A stretch of 64,000 bases of DNA from Paroceanicella profunda (lineage in GTDB: Bacteria; Pseudomonadota; Alphaproteobacteria; Rhodobacterales; Rhodobacteraceae), in NCBI RefSeq assembly GCF_005887635.2, contig NZ_CP040818.1, forward strand, positions 2,696,501-2,760,500, read 5' to 3'. This document shows positions 18,128-57,109 of this stretch, piece by piece. The stretch's first letter is position 1. Each line of letters begins with the position of its first letter. Below the pieces are notes generated by a model. That model searched no databases. It worked only from the letters and a program-made list of their open reading frames with translations, and had not been told where the DNA came from. The translations under genes and the position numbers were made by a program.

Positions 18128-18610
18128 CGTGACGCTCCGGGCCCGGAGCGCCGACCTTTCCGGCCCCGCGCCCGCTCTCCCCGCCGGCCACCGGGCGCGA
18201 GGTCTTGCCGGGCGTGCGCGGTGATGCTGCGTGACCGGAGCGTTGACGCTTCCAGCCGAACCCCGGCACTCTTTCTGCGGGAGACCGGGAGACCGGGAGA
18301 CCGGGAGACCGGGAGACCGGGAGACCGGGAGACCGGGAGACCGGGAGACCGGGAGACCGGGAGACCGGGAGACCGGGAGACCGGGAGACCGGGAGACCGG
18401 GAGACGTTCCGTGATCGGATCGCGGACATTCCTGGCTCAACCCCTGGCTCTCCCTGTCGAGTACCGGGCGCGGGGTTCTGGCCGGCGCGGCCTGTGACGT
18501 TCCGTGACCGGATCGCCGACACTCCCGGCTCACCGTCTCGAAGATCGGGTGCGGGGTCCTGGCTGGCGTGGCCCGCAACACTCCGTGACCGGACGGCTGA
18601 CCTTTCCGGC
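18128..18610. repeat. Diverged repeats of about 83-94 bp
   Basis: A unit resembling GTGACGCTCCGTGACCGGAT followed by CGCCGACCTTTCCGG occurs near 18128, 18222, 18403, 18495 and 18578. The 8-bp array at 18283 sits inside the second copy. The 590-bp gap holds no supportable gene. Confidence 0.65.
18283..18405 (+). repeat. 8-bp tandem array GACCGGGA, about 15 copies
   Basis: The octamer GACCGGGA is repeated perfectly. Because 8 is not a multiple of 3, every frame reads the same 8-residue period, which explains the spurious open frames. On the + strand the runs GGG are spaced by five bases, fitting the G3-N5 pattern for G-quadruplex formation many times over. Confidence 0.97.
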
Positions 18611-25280: not shown

Positions 25281-25322
25281 GGAGCCTGCGGCACGGCCGG
25301 GCCTTCTGCGCGGACGACCTCT

Positions 25323-25400
25323 GACGGGGGAACGCCCGCCTTGCCGAGGGGGCTTCGCCCCCGCAGCCCGGCGGGCGTGGCGAAGGCCTCTCCGGGCCTC
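25323..25400 (+). repeat. Dispersed nested-hairpin (REP-like) element, copy B
   Basis: Outer arms CGCCCGCC (25333-25340) and GGCGGGCG (25370-25377) enclose inner stem GGGGGC/GCCCCC (25348-25353, 25357-25362) with loop TTC. It is homologous to copy A at 4826, differing in one outer pair (C-G here, T-A there) and in the loop-closing pairs. It starts about 40 bases past the ABC exporter stop. Confidence 0.75.
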
Positions 25401-25814
25401 CGCCCCAGCGGCGCCCGGGTCGCCCGGACCCTTCGGCGGTTGCGCGACGTTGGGCCGATGAGGCCGACAGGGTCACACCCGGCGCGGCTCAACCCTTCCG
25501 CCCGGGCGACCAGCCCGGGCCGCGCCCGACCCTCCCCCCGGGAGGGCGCGATGGCGATGTCATTCGGGGTTCAGCCCTCGTCCGGGGCTTTCGAGATTAA
25601 TCGCCCACCACAAGCGGCGCTGCGCCCACCCAGGGTCGGGCGCGGCCCTTCGTGCCCGGCGGAGACGTTGCATACCTCTGCGCCGGGCAGAAGCCTTGCT
25701 GACTCCCGCGCCGGGTAGAAACGGTGCAAACTTCCGCGTCGGGTGGTGGTGGCGGCATCTTCAGAGGCGCCGTCAGACAAGGGGTTGCACGGGAGTTCGT
25801 GCCGGGCCATGCAG

Positions 25815-26386
<572 letters not shown>

Positions 26387-41417: not shown

Positions 41418-41432
41418 GAACAAAAAGCGAAC
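41418..41432. promoter_or_regulatory. LexA box upstream of imuA
   Basis: GAAC-AAAAAGC-GAAC, an exact match to the alphaproteobacterial SOS box (GAAC-N7-GAAC). A -10-like CATAAT overlaps its end (41432-41437), so LexA would block polymerase. Confidence 0.85.
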
Positions 41433-41485: not shown

Positions 41486-42295
41486 ATGGACCTGGATGAA
41501 CTGAGAGGGATGATCGCCCGGATGGAGGGCCGGGCCGGGCGCCTGGAGCCGGGGGAGGCCGCGGGAGAGGCGGGGCCACCGGGCTGGACCCTCGGCGCCC
41601 CGGGGCCGGACGCGGCCCTGGGGCCGCCCGGGCTCGAGACCGGCGCGCTGCATGATTTCACCCCGCGCGCGGCGGCGCATGCGCCGGGGGTCGCGGCCTT
41701 CGCGCTGCGGCTGCTGGTGCGCCTGCCCCGGCCCGGGCCGCTGCTGTGGTGCCAGACGGATTTCGCCCTGCGCGAATACGGCGCCCCGGGAATTGCGGCC
41801 TTCCGCGGCGCGGGGCTTGCGCCCGAACGGGTGGTCTTCGTGTCTCTGCGCAAGCCCGCGGAGATGTCCTTCGTGCTGGAGGAGGCGCTCGGCGTGCCGG
41901 CGCTGGCCGCGGTGGTGGGCGAGGGGCCGCCGCTCTCCTTCACCGCCACGCGGCGCCTGGCGCTGCGCGCCGAGGAGAGCGGGGTGCCCTGCCTGTTCCT
42001 CGGCCTCGGCGCGGAGCAGGGGCCCTCCGTGGCGGCCACGCGCTGGCGGCTGGGCCCGGCGCCGGGCCTGCCGCATCCCGATGATCCCGCGGCACCGGGC
42101 CAGCCCGGCTGGTCCGTGGCGCTGGAGCGGGCCCGGGCCGGCCGGCCCGGCAGCTGGAAGGTAACCTGGAATGAAACGACGCATTCTTTCGCTCCGCTTC
42201 CCGTTCCTGCCGGTGGAGCGCGTGTTCCGGGACGAGGCGGCCCGGAGCCGGAGCCGGCAGGACTGGCCGGAGGAGACCGCTCCCGGCAGGCCTGA
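41486..42295 (+). CDS. imuA: ImuA, mutasome accessory protein (RecA/SulA-like)
   Basis: A 269-residue protein starting at the ATG at 41486 behind GGAAGG. It resembles the RecA-fold ImuA proteins of alphaproteobacteria (GALHDFTPRAAAHAPGVAAF, PLLWCQTDFALREYGAPG, VVFVSLRKPAEMSFVLEEAL), with no complete Walker A. It is first in the imuA-imuB-dnaE2 cassette that carries out SOS mutagenesis. Its last 125 bases overlap the imuB start in another frame, more than the usual few bases, which gives ImuA a Pro/Gly-rich tail. A LexA box lies 54 bases before the start. Confidence 0.9.
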   Translation: MDLDELRGMIARMEGRAGRLEPGEAAGEAGPPGWTLGAPGPDAALGPPGLETGALHDFTPRAAAHAPGVAAFALRLLVRLPRPGPLLWCQTDFALREYGAPGIAAFRGAGLAPERVVFVSLRKPAEMSFVLEEALGVPALAAVVGEGPPLSFTATRRLALRAEESGVPCLFLGLGAEQGPSVAATRWRLGPAPGLPHPDDPAAPGQPGWSVALERARAGRPGSWKVTWNETTHSFAPLPVPAGGARVPGRGGPEPEPAGLAGGDRSRQA

Positions 42296-44453
42296 GGCCG
42301 CCGGGCCGCTGGTGCTCGTCGAACGCACGGGGCAGGGCACGCGCATCACCGCCGCCGCGCCGGAGGCGTTGCGGGCCGGGGCGCGGCCGGGGCAGAGCCT
42401 TGCCGATGCCCGGGCCGCCTGCCCGGGGCTGCGGGTGCTGCAGGCCGCGCCGGAGGCCGATCGGGCGCTGCTGGAGCATCTCGCCCGCCGGGCGCAGCGC
42501 CATGCCCCGATCGTGGCGATGGACGGGCCGGACGGGCTGCTGCTCGACACCACGGGCTGCGCGCATCTCTTCGGCGGCGAGGCGGCGCTGCTGGCCGATT
42601 GTCTCGACGGGCTGGCCCGGGCCGGGCTGACGGTGCGCGCCGGGCTGGCGCCCACGCCCGCGCTGGCCCGGGCGCTCTCGGGCTTCGGGGCCGGGCGCGA
42701 GATTGTCCTGCCGGCGGAGATGGCGGAGCGGATCGACCGGCTGCCGGTGGAGGCGCTGCGCCTTGCGCCCGAGCGGGTGGTGCTGCTGCGCCGGCTGGGC
42801 CTGACCACCGTGGGCCGGCTGCGCGCCCTGCCGCGGGTGGCGCTGGAGCGGCGCTTCCGCAGCCGGGAGGCGGCGCTCTCGGTGCGGCTGCGCCTCGACC
42901 AGATCACCGGTGCGGTGGACGAGCCGCTCGCCCCGCTCTCGCCGCCGCCGCTCTACCGGGTGCAGCAGGTGCTGCCCGAGCCGGTGATCGACGTGAGCGC
43001 GGCCTCCATGGTGCTCGACCACCTGCTGCTGCGCCTCGCCGGGCTGCTGGAGCGCGACGGGCGCGGCGCGCGGCTCCTCACCCTCAGCGCCTTTCGCGCC
43101 GATGGCGGCATGAGCGAGGTGCGCGTGCGCCTGGCGCGGCCCGCGCGGGATGCGGCGCGGATCGGGCGGCTGTTCGCCGGCCGGCTGGAGGAGATCGACA
43201 GCGGCTTCGGCATCGACGCCTTCGTGCTCTCGGCCTCCGGGGTCGAGGCGCTCGACGCCCGGCAGGACAGCTTCGTCGCTCCGCCCCCCGCGCGTGGGCG
43301 GCCTGACGCCCTGCCCGGCATGGACGGGCGCACCGGCGTCTCCGGCGGGGCAAACCCCGGAAGGCACGCCGGAACTGGCCCCGGACCGGCCGTGCGAGTG
43401 GCACCCGCGCCGGGCACGGGATCGGACCCGATGAGGCGCCAAGGGATGCCCTCTGGAGCGGGCAGCAGCCCGGTCATGGGCATTTCTGACAGCCCGCGCA
43501 TTGTTTCGGGTCCGGGAAGGGGCTCCGGGTTGGCGCGCGGAGCAAGCTCCGGGCCGGGCGTCGGGCCGGCTGGCGGGGCAGGTGGCCCTGGAAGCGGCGC
43601 TGGCGGAGCGGGTTCCGGGCCGGGCATGGGACTGGTGACCGGCACAGGCGCCGGGCCGGGCCCCGAGGCGCCCCCCGGCACTGCCGTTGAAGCGGGCCCC
43701 GGGGCGGACAGGGTATCGGCCCCCGAAAGATGCCGCGGGATGCCCGCGTCATCGGCCGGCGGCCCGGTCATGGGCAGGGCTGACAGCCCGTGCACCGTCT
43801 CGGATCCGGGAAGGGGCTCCGGGCTGGCGCGCGGAGCAGGCCCGGGGCCGGGCGTCGGGATGACTGGCGGGGCAGGTGCCGCGGCGGGCCCGGGAAGGGG
43901 CGCTGGCGGAGCGGGTTCCGGGCCGGGCATCGGGAAACGTGACGGGGCTGGTCTGGAGCCGGGCCTGCCAGGCGCGATGTTCACCCTGGTCGACACGCTG
44001 GCCAACCGGCTGGGCGGGCGGCGCGTCTACCAGCTTGCCCCGGTGGCGAGCCACCTGCCGGAGCGGGCGATGCGCCGGGTGGCGGTCGGCGCCTCCGGGG
44101 GCGGCGGCGCGGCTGTGCGGAGCGCCGATCCCGGCCCCTGGCCCGAAGCCGCCCCGCTGCGGCCGCTGCGCCTGCTTCCCCGGCCCGAACCGGTGGAGGT
44201 GACCGCCGCGCTGCCCGACGGCCCTCCGCTGCAGTTCGTCTGGCGGCGGGTGCGGCGGGTGGTGCTCCGCGCTGCCGGGCCGGAGCGGATCGCCCCGGAA
44301 TGGTGGCACCCGGACGCCCGTGGCACCGCGGTGCGCGACTATTACCATGTCGAGGATCGCGAGGGCTGCCAGTACTGGCTGTGCCGCGCCCTTGCCCCCG
44401 GCGGCCCGGCGGCCGGCCGGGGGGAATGGTATCTGCACGGGCTCTTCGCATGA
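42171..44453 (+). CDS. imuB: ImuB, catalytically inactive Y-family polymerase homologue, with repeat insertion
   Basis: A 760-residue ImuB; usual members are about 500-550. The start [19 protein letters not shown] and the palm-like region [20 protein letters not shown] are typical, and the catalytic carboxylates of Y-family polymerases are absent, as is normal for ImuB, which bridges DnaE2, ImuA and the beta clamp. After about residue 365 a Gly/Pro/Ala-rich insertion of roughly 230 residues precedes the conserved C-terminal module ([29 protein letters not shown]). The insertion contains two copies of a 98-residue unit. Its stop overlaps the dnaE2 start (ATGA). Part of the SOS cassette. Confidence 0.92.
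43421..43975 (+). repeat. 294-bp in-frame duplication inside imuB
   Basis: The segment from GGGATGCC at 43443 recurs at 43737, a shift of 294 bp (98 codons). Shared words include GCCCGGTCATGGGCA, CTGACAGCCCG and CCGGGAAGGGGCTCCGGG. The second copy fades after about 43960. Confidence 0.85.
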
Positions 44454-47400
44454 TCCGCCGGCCGACCTCTTTCCAGCCGTCCCGGCCTCCCGCGCCGGCG
44501 AACACGCTCTCCATGCCCCGCCGGGAGAGCCTGCACCGGCCTGCCGTGCCCGACGCGCCCTTGCCGGACACTCTCACGCCAGCCCTCGACACCCGTCGCA
44601 CCGCACAAGCCGGCGCCCCTGCCATCCCCGGCCCGGCCCGTGCCGCGCCCGCCGCGCCTCCCACACCGGTCCACGCGACCGCGGGGCCTGCACAGCCCGG
44701 TGCCGCTGCGGCGCCCGGAGCGGGCAGGATCGCTGACACCCCCGTGCCGGCCCGGGCCCCTGCCGGACCGGCGCCGACTGGTCCCGTTGCCATGCCCGAC
44801 GCGGACAGTGCCCCTCCCGCGCCGGCCTGCAGGATTACCCGGCCTGCGCAGCCCGATGCCGCTGCGGCGCTCGAAGCGGGCAGTGCCGATGCCGTGCCGG
44901 TCCGGGCCTCTGTCGGGCCCGCGCAGACCGGTTTCACCGGGGGGCGCAGCGTGGCCGATGCCGCTGTCACGACTTCGCAGGTTCGCGGCACCGCCGGGCT
45001 GGCGCAGGCCGGTGCCGCTGTCATGCCCGGTGCGCGCGGCGCGGATGGCCCGCTCATGCCGGGCCGCGGCACCGCAGGGCTTACGCCGGTCGGGCCTGTT
45101 GCCATGCCCGGGGCGGCCAGTGCCGCCGGTGCCCCCACGCAGGTCCGCCGCCCCGCCGGGCGTGCGCAGACCCACATTGCTCGGGCGCCCGGGCCGGGCA
45201 GCTCCGCTGCCGGGTCCGCGAGAGCTTGTCCCCGGGCCGCGACGAAGGCGGCCGGCGTCCGGCATGAGGGGACCGGCGCCGGGCATGGAGCGGTCGGCGT
45301 CGGGCATGGAGCGGTCGGCGTCGGGCATGGGGCGACCGGCACCGGGCATAGGGGGACCGGCACCGGGGATGGGGGGACCGGCGCCGGGGATGACGCGGCC
45401 GGTACCGGGCATGGAGCGGCTGGTATCGGGCATGTGGCGACCGACGTCTGGTCTGGAGCGACCGGCGTCGGGGATGGCGCGGCTGGTGCCGGGCATGGGC
45501 CTGCCCCGGCGGGGGCGGCGGACCTGCTGCCGTTCCGCCCGCGCAGCGGGAAGCGCCGGCGGGGGCCGCCGGGTGGGCCGCCGGCCTACGGCGAGCTGGC
45601 CTGCACCACGAATTTCTCCTTCCTGCGCGGCGCCTCGCATGCCCGGGAACTGGTGGCGCGGGCGGTGGAGCTGGGCCATGTCGCCCTCGGGGTGGCGGAC
45701 AGGAACACGCTCGCCGGGGTGGTCCGCGCCCATGTGGCGGCGAAGGCGGCCGGGCTGCGGCTGCTGGTCGGCGCCCGGCTGGTGAGCCGCGAGGGGTTCG
45801 AGACCCTGTGCTACCCCACCGACCGGGCCGCCTATGGCCGGCTGTCGCGCCTGCTCACCGCCGGTAAGCGCGCCGCGCCCAAGGGGGAGTGCGATTTCGG
45901 CCTGGATGACCTGCTGGCCCATGCGCAGGGCCAGGTGTTCATCGCGCTGCCTCCCGCGGCGGCTGCGCGCGAGGCGGATTTCGCGCTGCATCTCGCCGCG
46001 CTGGGGCAGGCGGCGCCGGGGCGGGTGTGGCTCGGGCTCGCGCATCGGCAGGGCGGGGATGACCGGGCCCGGATGGCCCGGCTCGCGGCGCTGGCGGCGC
46101 GCGCGGGCCTGCCGCTGGTTGCCCATAACGACGTGCATTACCATGACCCCGCCCGCCGCCCGTTGCAGGACGTGCTCACCTGCATCCGCGAGGGGGTGAC
46201 GGTGGCCGAGGCCGGCTTCCGCCTCGCCGCCAATGCCGAGCGCCACCTGAAGCCGGCGGCCGAGATGGCCCGGCTCTTCGCCGCCTGGCCGGGGGCGCTG
46301 GCGGCCATCGGCGACATCCTGGCCCTGTGCCGGTTCTCGCTCGACGAACTGGCCTACAACTACCCCTCCGAGCCGGTGCCGAAGGGCACCACGCCCCAGG
46401 CGCATCTCGAGGCGCTGGCCCGCGCCGGGGCCGCGGCGCGCTACCGCGGGGCGGTGCCCTCGAAGGTCACCGCGCTGCTGGAGAAGGAGATCGCGCTGAT
46501 CGGCGAGCTGGGTTACGCGCCCTACTTCCTCACCGTGCACGACATGGTGGCCTTCGCGCGCAGCCGCGGCATCCTGTGCCAGGGGCGGGGCTCGGCGGCG
46601 AACTCGGCGGTGTGCTACTGCCTCGGCATCACCGCGGTGGACCCGGCGAAGAGCGAACTGCTGTTCGAGCGCTTCATCTCCCGCGCCCGCAAGGAGCCGC
46701 CGGACATCGACGTGGATTTCGAGCATGAGCGCCGCGAGGAGGTGATCCAGCATGTCTACGCCCGCTACGGCCGCCACCGCGCCGCCCTCGCGGCCACCGT
46801 GATCTCCTACCGCCCGCGCAGCGCGGTGCGCGACGTGGGCCGGGCCATGGGCCTCACCGAGGACGTGACGGCGGCGCTCGCCTCCACGGTCTGGGGCTCC
46901 TGGGGGGACGAGTTGCCGGCGGAGGAGATCCGCGCCGCCGGCCTCGACCTCTCGGACCCGCTGCTGGCGCGCACCGTGGCGCTCACCACCGAGCTGCTGG
47001 GCTTCCCGCGCCACCTCTCCCAGCACGTGGGCGGGTTCGTGCTCACCGAGGACCCGCTGGAGGAGATCGTGCCCATCGGCAATGCCGCGATGGCGGACCG
47101 CACCTTCATCGAGTGGGACAAGGACGACATCGAGGCGCTGGGTATCCTGAAGGTGGACGTGCTGGCGCTGGGCATGCTGAGCTGCCTCGCCCGGGCCTTC
47201 GGCATGCTGCGCGCCTGGGAGGGGGTCGGCCACGACCTCGCCTCCATCCCTCCGGATGACCCGCGCGTCTACGACATGCTCTCGGCGGCGGATGCGATCG
47301 GCGTGTTCCAGGTGGAGAGCCGCGCCCAGCTCAACATGCTGCCGCGCCTGCGCCCGAAGGTGTTCTACGACCTCGTCATCGAGGTGGCCATCGTGCGGCC

Positions 47401-50155
47401 CGGGCCGATCCAGGGCGACATGGTCCACCCCTACCTGCGAAGGCGCGACGGGCTGGAGACGGTGCACTATCCCTCGCCCGCGCCCGAGCATGGCGACCCG
47501 CAGGAGCTGCGCCGGGTGCTGGACCGCACCCTGGGCGTGCCGCTGTTCCAGGAACAGGCGATGCAGATCGCCATCACCGCGGCCGAGTTCACCGGCGACG
47601 AGGCCAACGAGCTGCGCCGCGCCATGGCCACCTTCCGCAACCCCGGCACCATCCACGCGCTGGAGGAGCGCATGGTGGGGCGGATGATCGCCCGCGGCTA
47701 TACGGCCGATTTCGCCTCCCGCTGCTTCGAGCAGATCAAGGGCTTCGGCCAGTACGGCTTCCCGGAGAGCCACGCGGCGAGCTTTGCCATCCTCGTCTAC
47801 GCCTCGGCCTGGGTGAAGTGCCACCACCCGGCGATCTTCTGCGCGGCGCTGCTGAACTCCCAGCCCATGGGCTTCTACGCCCCGGCCCAGCTGGTGCGCG
47901 ACGCGCGCGGCCACGGGGTGGAGGTGCGCCCGGTGGATGTCCTCGCCTCGGACTGGGACTGCACGCTGGAGCCGGGGGAGGAGGGCTCCGCCGTGCGGCT
48001 GGGGTTCCGCATGGTCGACGGGCTTCCCGAGGCCGAGATGCGCGCCTTCATCACCCGCCGCGCCGCGCTCATGGCCGCCGCCCCCGGACCGACCGCCCGG
48101 CGCGACACCGCCCCGAACGCAGGCGGCACGGCCCCCGCCGGGGGGGAGGCGACCGCATCGCCGCGTACGGCACATCCGGCCGCCGGCAGCCCCGTCCCGC
48201 CGGCCCGCGCCCGCGCTGCCGCCTCGCCGCAAGGTCCGGGCGCGGCCGGGGGGGAGGACAGCGCACACCCGGCCGCCCCCCACACCGGCCCGCAGGCCCG
48301 CGGCCCCGCGACATCCACCGAACAAGGCACGGAAGCCGTTGGAAGGGAGGCGGCCGCGCCACCCGGCGGGATGGCCCTGGCCGCCCCTCACCTCGCCCCG
48401 CAGGTCTCCGGCCCCGCGACCTCCACTGTGCAAGGCGCGGAAACCGCGGGGAGCGAGGTGGCTGTGCCATCCGGCAGCACGACCCTGGCCGCCACCCGCC
48501 CCGGTTCGCAGGTCTCTGACCCCGCGACCTCCACGATGCAAGGCGCGGAAGCCGTGGGGAGCGAGGTGGCCGCGCCACCCGGCGGCACGGACATGGCCGC
48601 CCCCCACACGGGCCCGCAGATCCCTGGCCCTGCGGCTTTCACTGCGGACGGCGCGGCCTCGGCTGACAGGGCGCGGGGCGCGCCACCGGGCGCGGCGCAC
48701 CGGGCCAACAGCGGCGCTGTCGCGCAGGCCCGAGGCTCTGCCGTCTCCACGCTGCGGGCCGCGGGCGCTGCCGGGAGGGCGGCGCCCATGCCGCCGGGCG
48801 GGGTGGCCCTGGCCAGCGGCACCCCGCCTCCGCAGGCTCATGGCGCGGGCAGGTCCATGGTGCAGCGCTCCCGCCCGGCTGGGCGGGGGGAGGCCGCGCC
48901 GGCGGGTTGGGCGCATCCGGTTGCCGGAGGAGGGGGGGCGAGGGCGCCCCGAGACGGGACGGAGGCGCCGCCCTCGGAGACGGCTGGCGCCGCGGTGCCG
49001 TCCGGGCCTTCGGGCGGGCCCGCGGTGGTGGCGGACGGGGGAGCCGCGCCCGGGGGCGGCGGGTGTGATGTGGGTCCTTCGGTCCTTCCGGGCGGTGACG
49101 GGTGTGATGTAGGTCCCCCGGTCTTGCCGGGCGGCGACGGGTGTGACGTGGGCGCCCCTGCCATGCCGGGCGGCGATGGGTGTGATGTGGGCGCCCCTGC
49201 CATGCCGGGCGGCGATGGGTGTGATGTGGTCCCCCCGGCCCTGCCGGGCGGCGATGGGTGTAGTGTGGCCCCCCCGGCCCTGCCGGGGGGCGCGGAGGGT
49301 GATGTGGGTGCCCCGGCCCTGCCGGGCGGCGCGGAGAACGCCCGGTTCCGGGAGGCCGCCGGGAGCGCTGCGCTGCCGGAGGCGCGGCTCACCGCGGTGC
49401 CGGACTGGCTCGGCGGGCTCGACGCCTTCCGGGTGACGACGGGGCTCAGCCAGGCCCTGCTGGAGCGGCTGGCCTCGGCGGATGCGCTGGGCGGGCTGGG
49501 GCTGGACCGGCGGCAGGGGCTCTGGGCGGTGCGGGGCATGGGCGCCGATACCGGCCTGCCGCTGTTCGAGGCCGCGGGCCAGACCGGCAGCGGTGCCGAT
49601 CCGGAGGTGCGCCTGCCGGCCATGCGCCTCTCCGAGGAGGTGGTGGCCGATTATCAGACCCAGCGGCTGTCGCTGAAGGCGCACCCGATGAGCTTCCTGC
49701 GCGCGCGCCACGCCGCGCGCGGCATCCGCCCGGCGCAGGCGCTGGGCGAGACGGTGCAGAACCAGCGGGTGCAGGTCTCCGGCGTGGTGCTGGTGCGCCA
49801 GCGGCCGGGCACCGCGCAGGGCGTGGTGTTCATGACCATCGAGGACGAGACCGGCACGGTGAACATCGTGATCTGGAAGGCGGTGCTGGCCCGGTTCCGC
49901 CGCGCGGTGATGACGGCGCGGCTGGTGCGGGTGTCCGGCGTTGTGCAGCGGGCGGGGGAGGTCATCCACGTGATCGCCGGGCGCATCGATGACCTGAGCG
50001 ACGAGCTCTCCCTGCTCTCGGAGACCGGGGACATGCCCGACACCCTCGCGCGGGCCGACGAGGTGAAGCGCCCCGAACCCGGCAGCCGCCACCCCGCGCG
50101 CGCCAGCCACCCGCGCAACGTGCGCATCCTGCCCCGAAGCCGGGACTTCCACTGA
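44450..50155 (+). CDS. dnaE2: Error-prone DNA polymerase DnaE2, enlarged by two low-complexity insertions
   Basis: From the ATG overlapping the imuB stop the protein has 1,901 residues; typical DnaE2 has about 1,050-1,170. Residues 1-378 are an Ala/Pro/Gly-rich extension with 27- and 7-residue repeats. The catalytic core then starts abruptly with [19 protein letters not shown] (379 on). The PHP domain has HNDVHYH; the polymerase Asp pair is in [14 protein letters not shown] (about 750) and the third acidic site in [15 protein letters not shown]. Residues about 1213-1628 are a second insertion of 36- and 13-residue repeats, after which the domain end ([14 protein letters not shown]) and OB fold resume. 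Removing both leaves about 1,108 residues. A start nearer residue 379 is possible, since no good ATG precedes the core. It does translesion synthesis after DNA damage. Confidence 0.9.
45261..45498 (+). repeat. 21-bp in-frame repeats in the dnaE2 5' extension
   Basis: GGCAT or GGGAT landmarks fall at 45261, 45282, 45303, 45324, 45345, 45366 and onward, an exact 21-bp period over about 11-12 copies, encoding a heptapeptide like AVGVGHG or ATGTGDG. Upstream (about 44640-45230) a weaker 27-residue repeat encodes AGPAQxGAA-like units. Confidence 0.88.
48277..48820 (+). repeat. 108-bp in-frame repeats inside dnaE2
   Basis: Units starting at 48277, 48385, 48493 and 48601 are exactly 108 bp (36 codons) apart, with a more diverged copy after. 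Each encodes a segment like [20 protein letters not shown]. Confidence 0.85.
49049..49331 (+). repeat. 39-bp in-frame cysteine-containing repeats inside dnaE2
   Basis: GGGTGTGAT recurs at 49061, 49100 and 49139 and onward every 39 bp, about seven copies, encoding [17 protein letters not shown] 13-residue units with one Cys each in all but the last. Confidence 0.9.
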
Positions 50156-50157
50156 GG

Positions 50158-50440
50158 CGGAGCGTCAGCGAAGCCGGGGCCTTCCATCCGGACGAGGTGT
50201 CAGCGAAGCCCGAGCCTTCCATCCGGACGGAGCATCAGTGACGCCGTGGTCCTTCCCCGAGGTCGAGCGTCAGAGAAGCCGGGCCTTCCACCGAGGCGGG
50301 GCGTGAGCGAGGCCGTGGCGCTTCCCCGCGGCAGGGCGTCGGCGGGCCGGGGCTTCTTCCGGGGCGGAGCGCCAGAGAAGCCGGGCCCTTGCCCGGGGCG
50401 AGGCGCCGGTGAAGCCGTGGTCCTTCCCGGGGCCGGAACA
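50158..50440. repeat. 35-bp tandem repeat, eight copies, 3' of dnaE2
   Basis: The landmark CAGCGAAGCC and variants recur at 50166, 50201, 50236, 50271, 50305, 50340, 50373 and 50407, a spacing of 33-35 bp. The unit carries CCTTCC-(A/C)CCG and differs from the 35-bp unit at 16726. Confidence 0.88.
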
Positions 50441-55929: not shown

Positions 55930-55958
55930 TTGTTCGCTATGTGTTCCTGTCGTACTGT
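55930..55958 (+). promoter_or_regulatory. Predicted recA promoter
   Basis: TTGTTC (55930-55935) and TACTGT (55953-55958) with a 17-bp spacer. The first LexA box overlaps the -35 element. Confidence 0.65.
55932..55946. promoter_or_regulatory. LexA box 1 of recA
   Basis: GTTC-GCTATGT-GTTC, an exact match to the alphaproteobacterial SOS box. Confidence 0.88.
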
Positions 55959-55961
55959 GTC

Positions 55962-55976
55962 GAACATCAGGCGAAC
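55962..55976. promoter_or_regulatory. LexA box 2 of recA (opposite orientation)
   Basis: GAAC-ATCAGGC-GAAC, the same box on the other strand, located around the predicted transcription start. Confidence 0.8.
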
Positions 55977-56026: not shown

Positions 56027-57109
56027 ATGGCACAGACACTCCTGGATCTGAACGAGAGGCGGGGCATGGACAAGCAGAAGGCGCTGGAATCGGCGATGGC
56101 GCAGATCGAGCGCAACTTCGGCAAGGGCTCGATCATGAAGCTCGGCCAGCGCAACGCGGTGATGGACGTGAAGGCGATCTCCACCGGATCGATCGGCCTC
56201 GACATCGCGCTCGGCATCGGCGGCCTGCCCAAGGGCCGCATCATCGAGATCTACGGCCCGGAAAGCTCCGGCAAGACCACCCTCGCGCTGCACGTGATCG
56301 CGGAGGAGCAGAAGAACGGCGGCGTCTGCGCCTTCGTCGACGCGGAGCATGCCCTCGACCCGTCCTACGCCCGCAAGCTGGGCGTGAACCTCGACGAACT
56401 GCTGATCTCCCAGCCCGATGCCGGCGAGCAGGCGCTGGAGATCACCGACACGCTGATCCGCTCCGGCGCGGTGTCGGTGATCGTGGTGGACTCGGTCGCG
56501 GCGCTCACGCCGAAGTCCGAGCTCGAGGGCGAAATGGGTGATCACCAGGTCGGCGCCCAGGCCCGGCTGATGAGCCAGGCCATGCGCAAGCTCACCGGGT
56601 CGATCTCGCGCTCGAACTGCATGGTGATCTTCATCAACCAGATCCGCATGAAGATCGGCGTGATGTTCGGCAGCCCGGAAACCACCTCGGGCGGCAACGC
56701 GCTGAAGTTCTACGCCTCCGTCCGGCTGGACATCCGCCGCATCGGCTCCATCAAGGACCGGGAGGAGACGGTGGGCAACGCCACCCGGGTCAAGGTGGTG
56801 AAGAACAAGGTCGCGCCGCCGTTCAAGCAGGTGGAATTCGACATCATGTACGGCGAGGGCATCTCCAAGCTGGGCGAGATCATCGACCTTGGCGTGAAGG
56901 CCGGCGTGGTGAACAAGTCCGGCTCCTGGTACTCCTACGGCGACCAGCGCATCGGGCAGGGGCGTGAGAACGCCAAGACCTTCCTGCGCGAGAACGCCAC
57001 CGTCTCGCTGGAGATCGAGGACAAGATCCGCGCCGCGCATGGGCTCGACTTCGCCATGTCCGGCGATGACGACAGCAGCGGTGGCGATACCGACGTGCTC
57101 GAGGCCTGA
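56027..57109 (+). CDS. recA: Recombinase RecA
   Basis: A 360-residue strand-exchange ATPase and LexA co-protease. Walker [10 protein letters not shown] (from about residue 78), Walker [13 protein letters not shown], the L1 loop region [19 protein letters not shown] and L2 [20 protein letters not shown] are all intact. The acidic C-terminal tail ([11 protein letters not shown]) is normal. Two LexA boxes lie in its promoter. The divergent neighbour is a sulfotransferase-like gene; alaS follows downstream. Confidence 0.98.

Follow-up and report, generated by a model that had tools for sequence, protein, structure and literature searches.

In-frame tandem repeats enlarge DnaE2 and ImuB of Paroceanicella profunda at three sites, likely through neutral growth in a repeat-rich genome

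The present study analyzes the error-prone DNA polymerase gene dnaE2 and its surroundings in a 64,000-nucleotide stretch of P. profunda contig NZ_CP040818.1 (the window). DnaE2 is enlarged here by an N-terminal tail and by an internal insert, both made up mostly of direct repeats, and its neighbor imuB holds a third insert that a sequence-only reading of the region had not listed beside these two. The enlargement is real and unusual, and its origin is likely neutral: the explanation that we consider probable is in-frame growth of minisatellites in a repeat-prone genome, retained where a dispensable SOS complex tolerates it. Coordinates of the features are collected in Table 1.

Table 1. Features of the imuA-imuB-dnaE2 region, in window coordinates
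Feature	Position	Strand	Basis
LexA-type box GAAC-N7-GAAC, upstream of imuA	41418..41432	+	motif count, window
imuA, compact, without insert	41486..42295	+	NCBIfam ImuA 24.2 bits (below cut-off 150); orthologue in SM1341 locus L032
imuB, 760 aa, Y-family IMS and IMS_C domains	42171..44453	+	ORF list, Pfam
imuB insert, residues 363-602; repeat spacings 294, 303, 66, 75, 228	43257..43976	+	codon signature, repeats, alignment
dnaE2, error-prone polymerase, 1,901 aa	44450..50155	+	ORF list, Pfam, NCBIfam; start overlaps imuB stop (ATGA)
N-terminal tail repeats, spacings 156, 150, 81 bp	44654..45226	+	repeat spacing analysis
N-terminal tail 21-bp (7-residue) array	45205..45519	+	TRF, repeat spacing
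Tail end DLLPFRPR..., like relatives' PPIPFKRP motif	45521..45586	+	relatives' tails compared
Polymerase core, residues 380-1202, motifs PDIDVDF and LKVDVLAL	45587..48055	+	Pfam, codon signature, structure alignment
Internal insert, residues about 1203-1646, within HHH_6	48056..49387	+	Pfam, codon signature, alignment, AlphaFold
108-bp array of internal insert	48259..48906	+	TRF, repeat spacing
39-bp array of internal insert	49004..49370	+	TRF, repeat spacing
Remainder of HHH_6 and OB-fold, constrained, same frame	49388..50152	+	Pfam, codon signature, dN/dS

An intact but oversized polymerase had been proposed from the letters of the window, and this was confirmed by Pfam and NCBIfam, which find a complete DnaE2 in one uninterrupted frame (the ORF list opens it at an upstream ATG, 44300). 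Pfam matches run from PHP (residues 385–472) through DNA_pol3_alpha (652–906), the finger domain (909–1082) and HHH_6 (1156–1205, covering just model positions 1–46 of 90) to OB (1774–1847), and the NCBIfam model for error-prone DNA polymerase, PRK05672, is matched in two stretches at 1423.9 bits against a cut-off of 939. A fold search of the pdb with DnaE2 returned the PolIII-alpha fold. Each catalytic motif occurs once and aligns with its counterpart, PDIDTDF or LKMDFLGL, in chain 2hpi_A, with the polymerase aspartates in place; the catalytic residues are assigned in part after PMC3919608. No Pfam domain follows OB, in keeping with the rule, in the part of PMC3919608 consulted, that DnaE2 has no C-terminal tau-binding domain past the OB fold. 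The ORF list also includes an antisense open frame of 1,936 codons.

Both additions stand out when DnaE2 is aligned with relatives, the check that the sequence-only reading had called for. The alignment had 120 rows, the window and its 119 best-scoring homologues as listed, with the window's own database entry (P0001) omitted; homologue counts here rest on the best 120 of 8000 scored and the best 120 of 791 matches. The window has 387 residues before NFSFLRG, close to the 378-residue extension first described, where 118 best-scoring homologues (P0002, from Oceanicella sp. SM1341, being set apart) have at most 55, with a median of 11. From LGFR to LERLAAAD there are 486 residues in the window, 108 in SM1341 and 39–52 in 115 of 117 other best-scoring homologues (median 40), the remaining two having 107 and 113. 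The internal insertion, first put at about 415 residues, proved to be one block of 444 at a single point of HHH_6. Elsewhere in the alignment, P0003 shows a 267-residue difference at another place, and three relatives (P0045, P0074, P0060) have a second insertion spot after the LAAGDALRSV segment, of up to 73 residues.

The repeat units reported at the outset were recovered as well, those of 21, 39 and 108 bp by TRF and the 81-bp family as copies at 44966, 45047 and 45128, with spacings of 150 and 156 bp in addition. All spacings listed in the three inserts are divisible by three and the constrained C-terminal part of DnaE2 lies in the same frame, which bears out the claim that the frame has been kept; nor do these arrays resemble those of a contingency locus, where a phase-variable unit is not a multiple of three. 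The open frame alone is weaker evidence, because shuffling the bases of the two dnaE2 inserts still left 1.6–2.4% of the shuffled sequences free of stops, as were several other frames there and the antisense frame. A further array of 35/69-bp units with 7% indels (50136–50437) overlaps and then follows the dnaE2 stop; it is flat in composition like the inserts.

Translation of the internal insert must follow if the protein is made at all, because the constrained C-terminal part (dN/dS 0.33, GC3 0.96) continues in the same frame. The tail requires more argument. It is possible, though in our judgment improbable, that the tail is untranslated, with translation beginning internally, around residue 329, so that of the two additions the HHH_6 insert alone would be real protein: the database entry P0001 (1,573 aa) begins at that residue, the annotated DnaE2 start of SM1341 is likewise internal, and the tail has no codon signature. 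Against this, the upstream ATG (44450 in the window) and the imuB stop run together as ATGA in P. profunda and SM1341 alike, which supports this start. Of 112 loci, 64 gave no anchor match; among the other 48, an overlap of this kind opening a frame of 200 codons or more occurs in 25 (three of these being entries of the two Paraoceanicella genes). In addition the 21-bp array of the tail has 0% indels by TRF, and the SM1341 frame read from the overlap begins MSRPPE, as do 9 of the 28 relatives with tails longer than 24 residues, several of which read MSRPPENPPIPFKRP. The start of the window's protein, MIRRPT, is only loosely like MSRPPE, and most homologues are without such a tail. Given the SM1341 start shared with relatives and an LLPF-like motif after the repeats in both species, it seems that a short N-terminal tail existed first and that the repeats expanded within it. 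The short motif PPIPFKRP or LLPF recurs in DnaE2 tails of several alphaproteobacteria, and one might speculate that it is a docking motif, possibly for the clamp.

The same three sites are enlarged in SM1341, the only genome of the same genus among 60 relatives, with other lengths and other sequences; its DnaE2 tail, for example, has 170 residues with (EA)n. Assemblies often go wrong in tandem repeats, and an artefact of this kind, or else a decaying gene, could be suspected. We regard either as very improbable. First is that passages of the genome paper (PMC7002103) describe Paraoceanicella profunda D4M1T, from Mariana Trench deep water, as sequenced by PacBio and Illumina at 431-fold coverage, and in SM1341, an independent assembly, these sites carry inserts that differ in sequence, so that the worry about the assembly voiced in the sequence-only reading is unlikely to be justified. 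Secondly, the dnaE2 frame has no stop and the core has a dN/dS of 0.25–0.33, which argues against decay. The longest non-coding-like gaps both in the window and in the SM1341 locus L032 fall in imu genes. The imu operon is the one place seen enlarged at the same sites in both species, with only two other genes compared.

The order imuA-imuB-dnaE2 behind a LexA-type box is that of a mutagenesis cassette, and dnaE2 is a maintained, probably SOS-regulated member of it. The sequence GAAC-N7-GAAC, which we take to be the alphaproteobacterial LexA box, occurs four times in the window (0.88 expected) and once in L032 (0.18 expected), where a similar box lies upstream of imuA. Two further boxes at 55932–55976 precede a frame (56027–57109) that reads by eye as recA, about 6 kb from the cassette. 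The identity of imuA rests on position, orthology and a below-cut-off NCBIfam match, and ImuA is compact in both species. In ImuB, the insert sits between a Q-x-x-[LMF] clamp-like motif and a RecA-NT-like motif. The distance from the conserved glutamine (Q in 115 of 120 rows, the best 120 homologues listed) to the RecA-NT-like motif is 240 residues in the window, 403 in SM1341 and 13–34 (median 17) in 118 homologues. Clamp-binding motif, RecA-NT-like motif and ImuB-C are the modules of ImuB given in a passage of PMC6511836, and we name the motifs of the window after these by analogy. General coupling of DnaE2 and ImuB growth was considered and dropped, for three relatives whose DnaE2 has a small insert do not show it: P0012, with its insert at the window's insertion point, and P0045 and P0074, with theirs at the nearby second spot, have ImuB linkers of 16–18 residues, each DnaE2 being presumptively paired with an ImuB by equal length of the longest contig.

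Codon composition separates the inserts from the genes around them. GC at the three codon positions is 0.75/0.50/0.95 in the DnaE2 core, and it is flat in the tail (0.81/0.76/0.78), the DnaE2 insert (0.82/0.76/0.83) and the imuB insert (0.78/0.80/0.77), as also in the array just downstream of dnaE2 (0.71/0.79/0.72). Compared with SM1341, dN/dS is 0.25 for the DnaE2 core and 0.33 for its C-terminal part; over orthologue cores of the two species it is 0.29 for DnaE2, 0.34 for ImuB and 0.39 for ImuA, with a median of 0.22 over 19 genes. Between repeat units (21-, 39- and 108-bp arrays), dN/dS is 1.36–1.44 for the 21-bp and 0.95–1.05 for the 108-bp units; for the 39-bp units, which have few differences, it is 0.38–0.44. 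Low values in the cores, which evolve under purifying selection, together with values near or above one in two of the three arrays suggest that the genes are maintained while those two arrays are free to change. AlphaFold of DnaE2 residues 830–1901 gave the insert a pLDDT of about 27–40 and no secondary structure, with helices flanking both sides, in a run on a shallow alignment (18 rows) with an overall pLDDT of only 52; the shorter insert of SM1341 is predicted as a low-confidence loop (887–948) between two helices. The insert stretches are probably floppy.

The genome of this Mariana Trench piezophile (5,468,583 bases, with contigs of 4,039,866 and 586,520 among others) is rich in tandem arrays. 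In 800 kb (40 stretches, of which L127 lies inside the window) TRF found 195 arrays, 41 of them with a score of at least 200 (51 per Mb), and in an enlarged sample of 1.18 Mb (59 stretches, L127 dropped, 949 gene calls by a home-made codon-score method) there were 54 such strong arrays (46 per Mb). By comparison, 400 kb from 20 relatives gave 32 arrays, one of them strong (2.5 per Mb), and 509 kb of SM1341 gave 91 with three strong, a rate that is a lower bound given its fragmented assembly (110 contigs, in which long perfect arrays may be missing). Composition may explain part of the excess, as the relatives' stretches average 63.5% GC compared with 70.2%; one stretch at 72.6% GC (L172) has six arrays in 20 kb, none of them strong. 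In the 1.18-Mb sample plus the window, strong arrays with coding flanks in the same frame on both sides had a period divisible by three in 6/6 cases, and the rest, which include the array of the dnaE2 tail, in 21/56.

Growth in frame is not confined to the imu genes. Among the 949 gene calls, in-frame gaps in coding signal reach at least 60 codons in 14, at least 150 in six, at least 300 in two and at least 411 in none, compared with gaps of 411 codons in dnaE2 and 226 in imuB; these counts are an upper bound on inserts because some gaps (e.g. L235 and L221) resemble normal coding sequence that merely differs in composition. Other in-frame inserts lie in a GH94-containing synthase (402 codons) and a CbiC fusion (214 codons), and in the SM1341 counterparts, both of which were compared, the insert is nearly absent or absent. 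An impression from the 800-kb sample, that dnaE2 was the sole non-RTX gene with strong in-frame-flanked arrays, was overturned by the 1.18-Mb sample, in which arrays also lie inside genes of L217 and L234. Two losses that could have caused the abundance of repeats were set aside: P. profunda has MutS of mismatch repair, which scores over cut-off in 20 of 21 genomes, and SbcD is over cut-off in 3 of 21, with P. profunda and SM1341 both below, so that a weak SbcD match does not distinguish this genome.

Some other features of the genome were recorded on the way. A stretch at 25815–26386 consists of (GCTCTCC) repeated 81.7 times with no mismatch, and is absent from the contiguous orthologous stretch of SM1341 (L214), to which both flanks align at 89–91%. 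Near-perfect arrays of 7–8-bp units with up to 50 copies (18278–18405; L134, L123, L145, L132) number 16 in 1.18 Mb, and none of period 7–8 was found in 509 kb of SM1341, the more fragmented assembly. A dispersed intergenic repeat of about 180–350 bp (25320–25675) takes 50 of the 55 SM1341 matches of a longer query; it also turns up at a few other points of the P. profunda sample and had no Rfam match. The replicative DnaE (PRK05673, 1474 bits) is encoded on the minus strand (L002, 409–3948) of the 586,520-bp replicon, plasmid pD4M1A (G000:C2), and a core search of P. profunda found no further DnaE-type copy besides this and dnaE2, so that the replicon looks like a chromid.

The patterns detected favor neutral growth because codon GC is flat, without a codon signature, the 21- and 108-bp units have a dN/dS of about 1–1.4, the insert is predicted to be unstructured, and the genome is rich in repeats and has other in-frame inserts. 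On this view, tandem duplications in frame have occurred again and again at three spots, the DnaE2 tail, a loop between two helices of HHH_6 and the ImuB linker, and have lengthened them. Duplications may arise genome-wide by slippage or unequal exchange, and those that are not a multiple of three, or that fall in packed parts of a protein, would be lost. Where the enzyme is dispensable and the linker exposed, duplications could persist as disordered spacers of nearly neutral sequence, which should be translated yet unneeded for synthesis. There are points against this explanation. The 39-bp units behave as if their sequence mattered, on small counts; pure tolerance must explain why this operon is enlarged at the same three sites in both species; and neutral spacers of this length would carry a cost.

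An alternative explanation could be that selection retains the long disordered segments near the contacts of ImuB and DnaE2 as tethers that change mutasome assembly or recruitment. The model in the part of PMC12926913 consulted has contacts of PHP with ImuB-C and of the (HhH)2 region with the ImuB thumb, and all three sites border these predicted contacts: the tail precedes PHP, HHH_6 contains the internal insert, and the insert of ImuB separates its polymerase-like part from ImuB-C. The shared enlargement and the 39-bp array are consistent with such selection as well, but this would not account for the difference in insert sequence between species, for the near-neutrality of two of the three tested arrays, for the ordinary ImuB linkers of P0012, P0045 and P0074, or for inserts of the same kind in unrelated genes, and we consider selected tethers unlikely. 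Of the two guesses made from the sequence, then, tolerance of repeats in the gene is better supported and altered recruitment less so, the 39-bp array and the position of the sites being what speaks against pure tolerance. A bolder and still slightly less likely reading is that evolution has turned the Paraoceanicella mutasome into a machine with loose tethers, in which changes of repeat number tune recruitment or mutation rate; the tethers would be disordered segments at both ImuB-docking domains of DnaE2 and in the ImuB linker that separates its two docking parts, in P. profunda about 1,000 extra residues together. The locus is a natural experiment on the amount of disorder that a translesion polymerase complex can bear, and on whether linker length near the ImuB-DnaE2 contact tunes mutagenesis. 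As tandem arrays are unusually abundant in this bacterial genome and some of its conserved genes are lengthening in frame, the birth of disordered segments from minisatellites may be traceable between two close species.

Large tandem-repeat inserts in DnaE2 or ImuB were not reported in the literature searched, and a search for the word "repeat" in the available text of the D4M1T genome paper (PMC7002103) found nothing. In domain order, catalytic motifs, lack of a C-terminal tau-binding domain, cassette and LexA-type box, the window's DnaE2 is like known DnaE2 systems, and it differs from its homologues in the residues before NFSFLRG (387 compared with a median of 11) and in the HHH_6 stretch (486 compared with a median of 40). 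According to PMC3919608, DnaE2 is the group within the C family in which core length rises with genome GC (rho 0.58); its length varies mainly in PHP and thumb, and it is non-essential in every genetic study cited there. Here the variation is instead in the N-tail and HHH_6. Palindromic in-frame repeats in DnaE2 were already known: PMC3733652 reports REP/RPE inserts in DNA-repair genes, DnaE2 included, mostly of 20–30 residues with clusters of 43–82. Repeats in frame within DnaE2 are the likeness to these, whereas the inserts of the window are direct tandem repeats, hundreds of residues long, and their inverted pairs are imperfect only (none in the tail and five in the internal insert, 72–88% complementary, in repetitive GC-rich DNA), so that they are not REP/RPE palindromic elements. 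Three Bradyrhizobium loci (L040, L043, L099) do have inserts with exact inverted repeats of 16–20 nt in the LGFR-LERLA stretch, slightly upstream of the window's insertion point, and P0012 and P0038 have 67 and 71 extra residues exactly at that point, so that this part of HHH_6 takes in-frame DNA repeatedly and by different routes.
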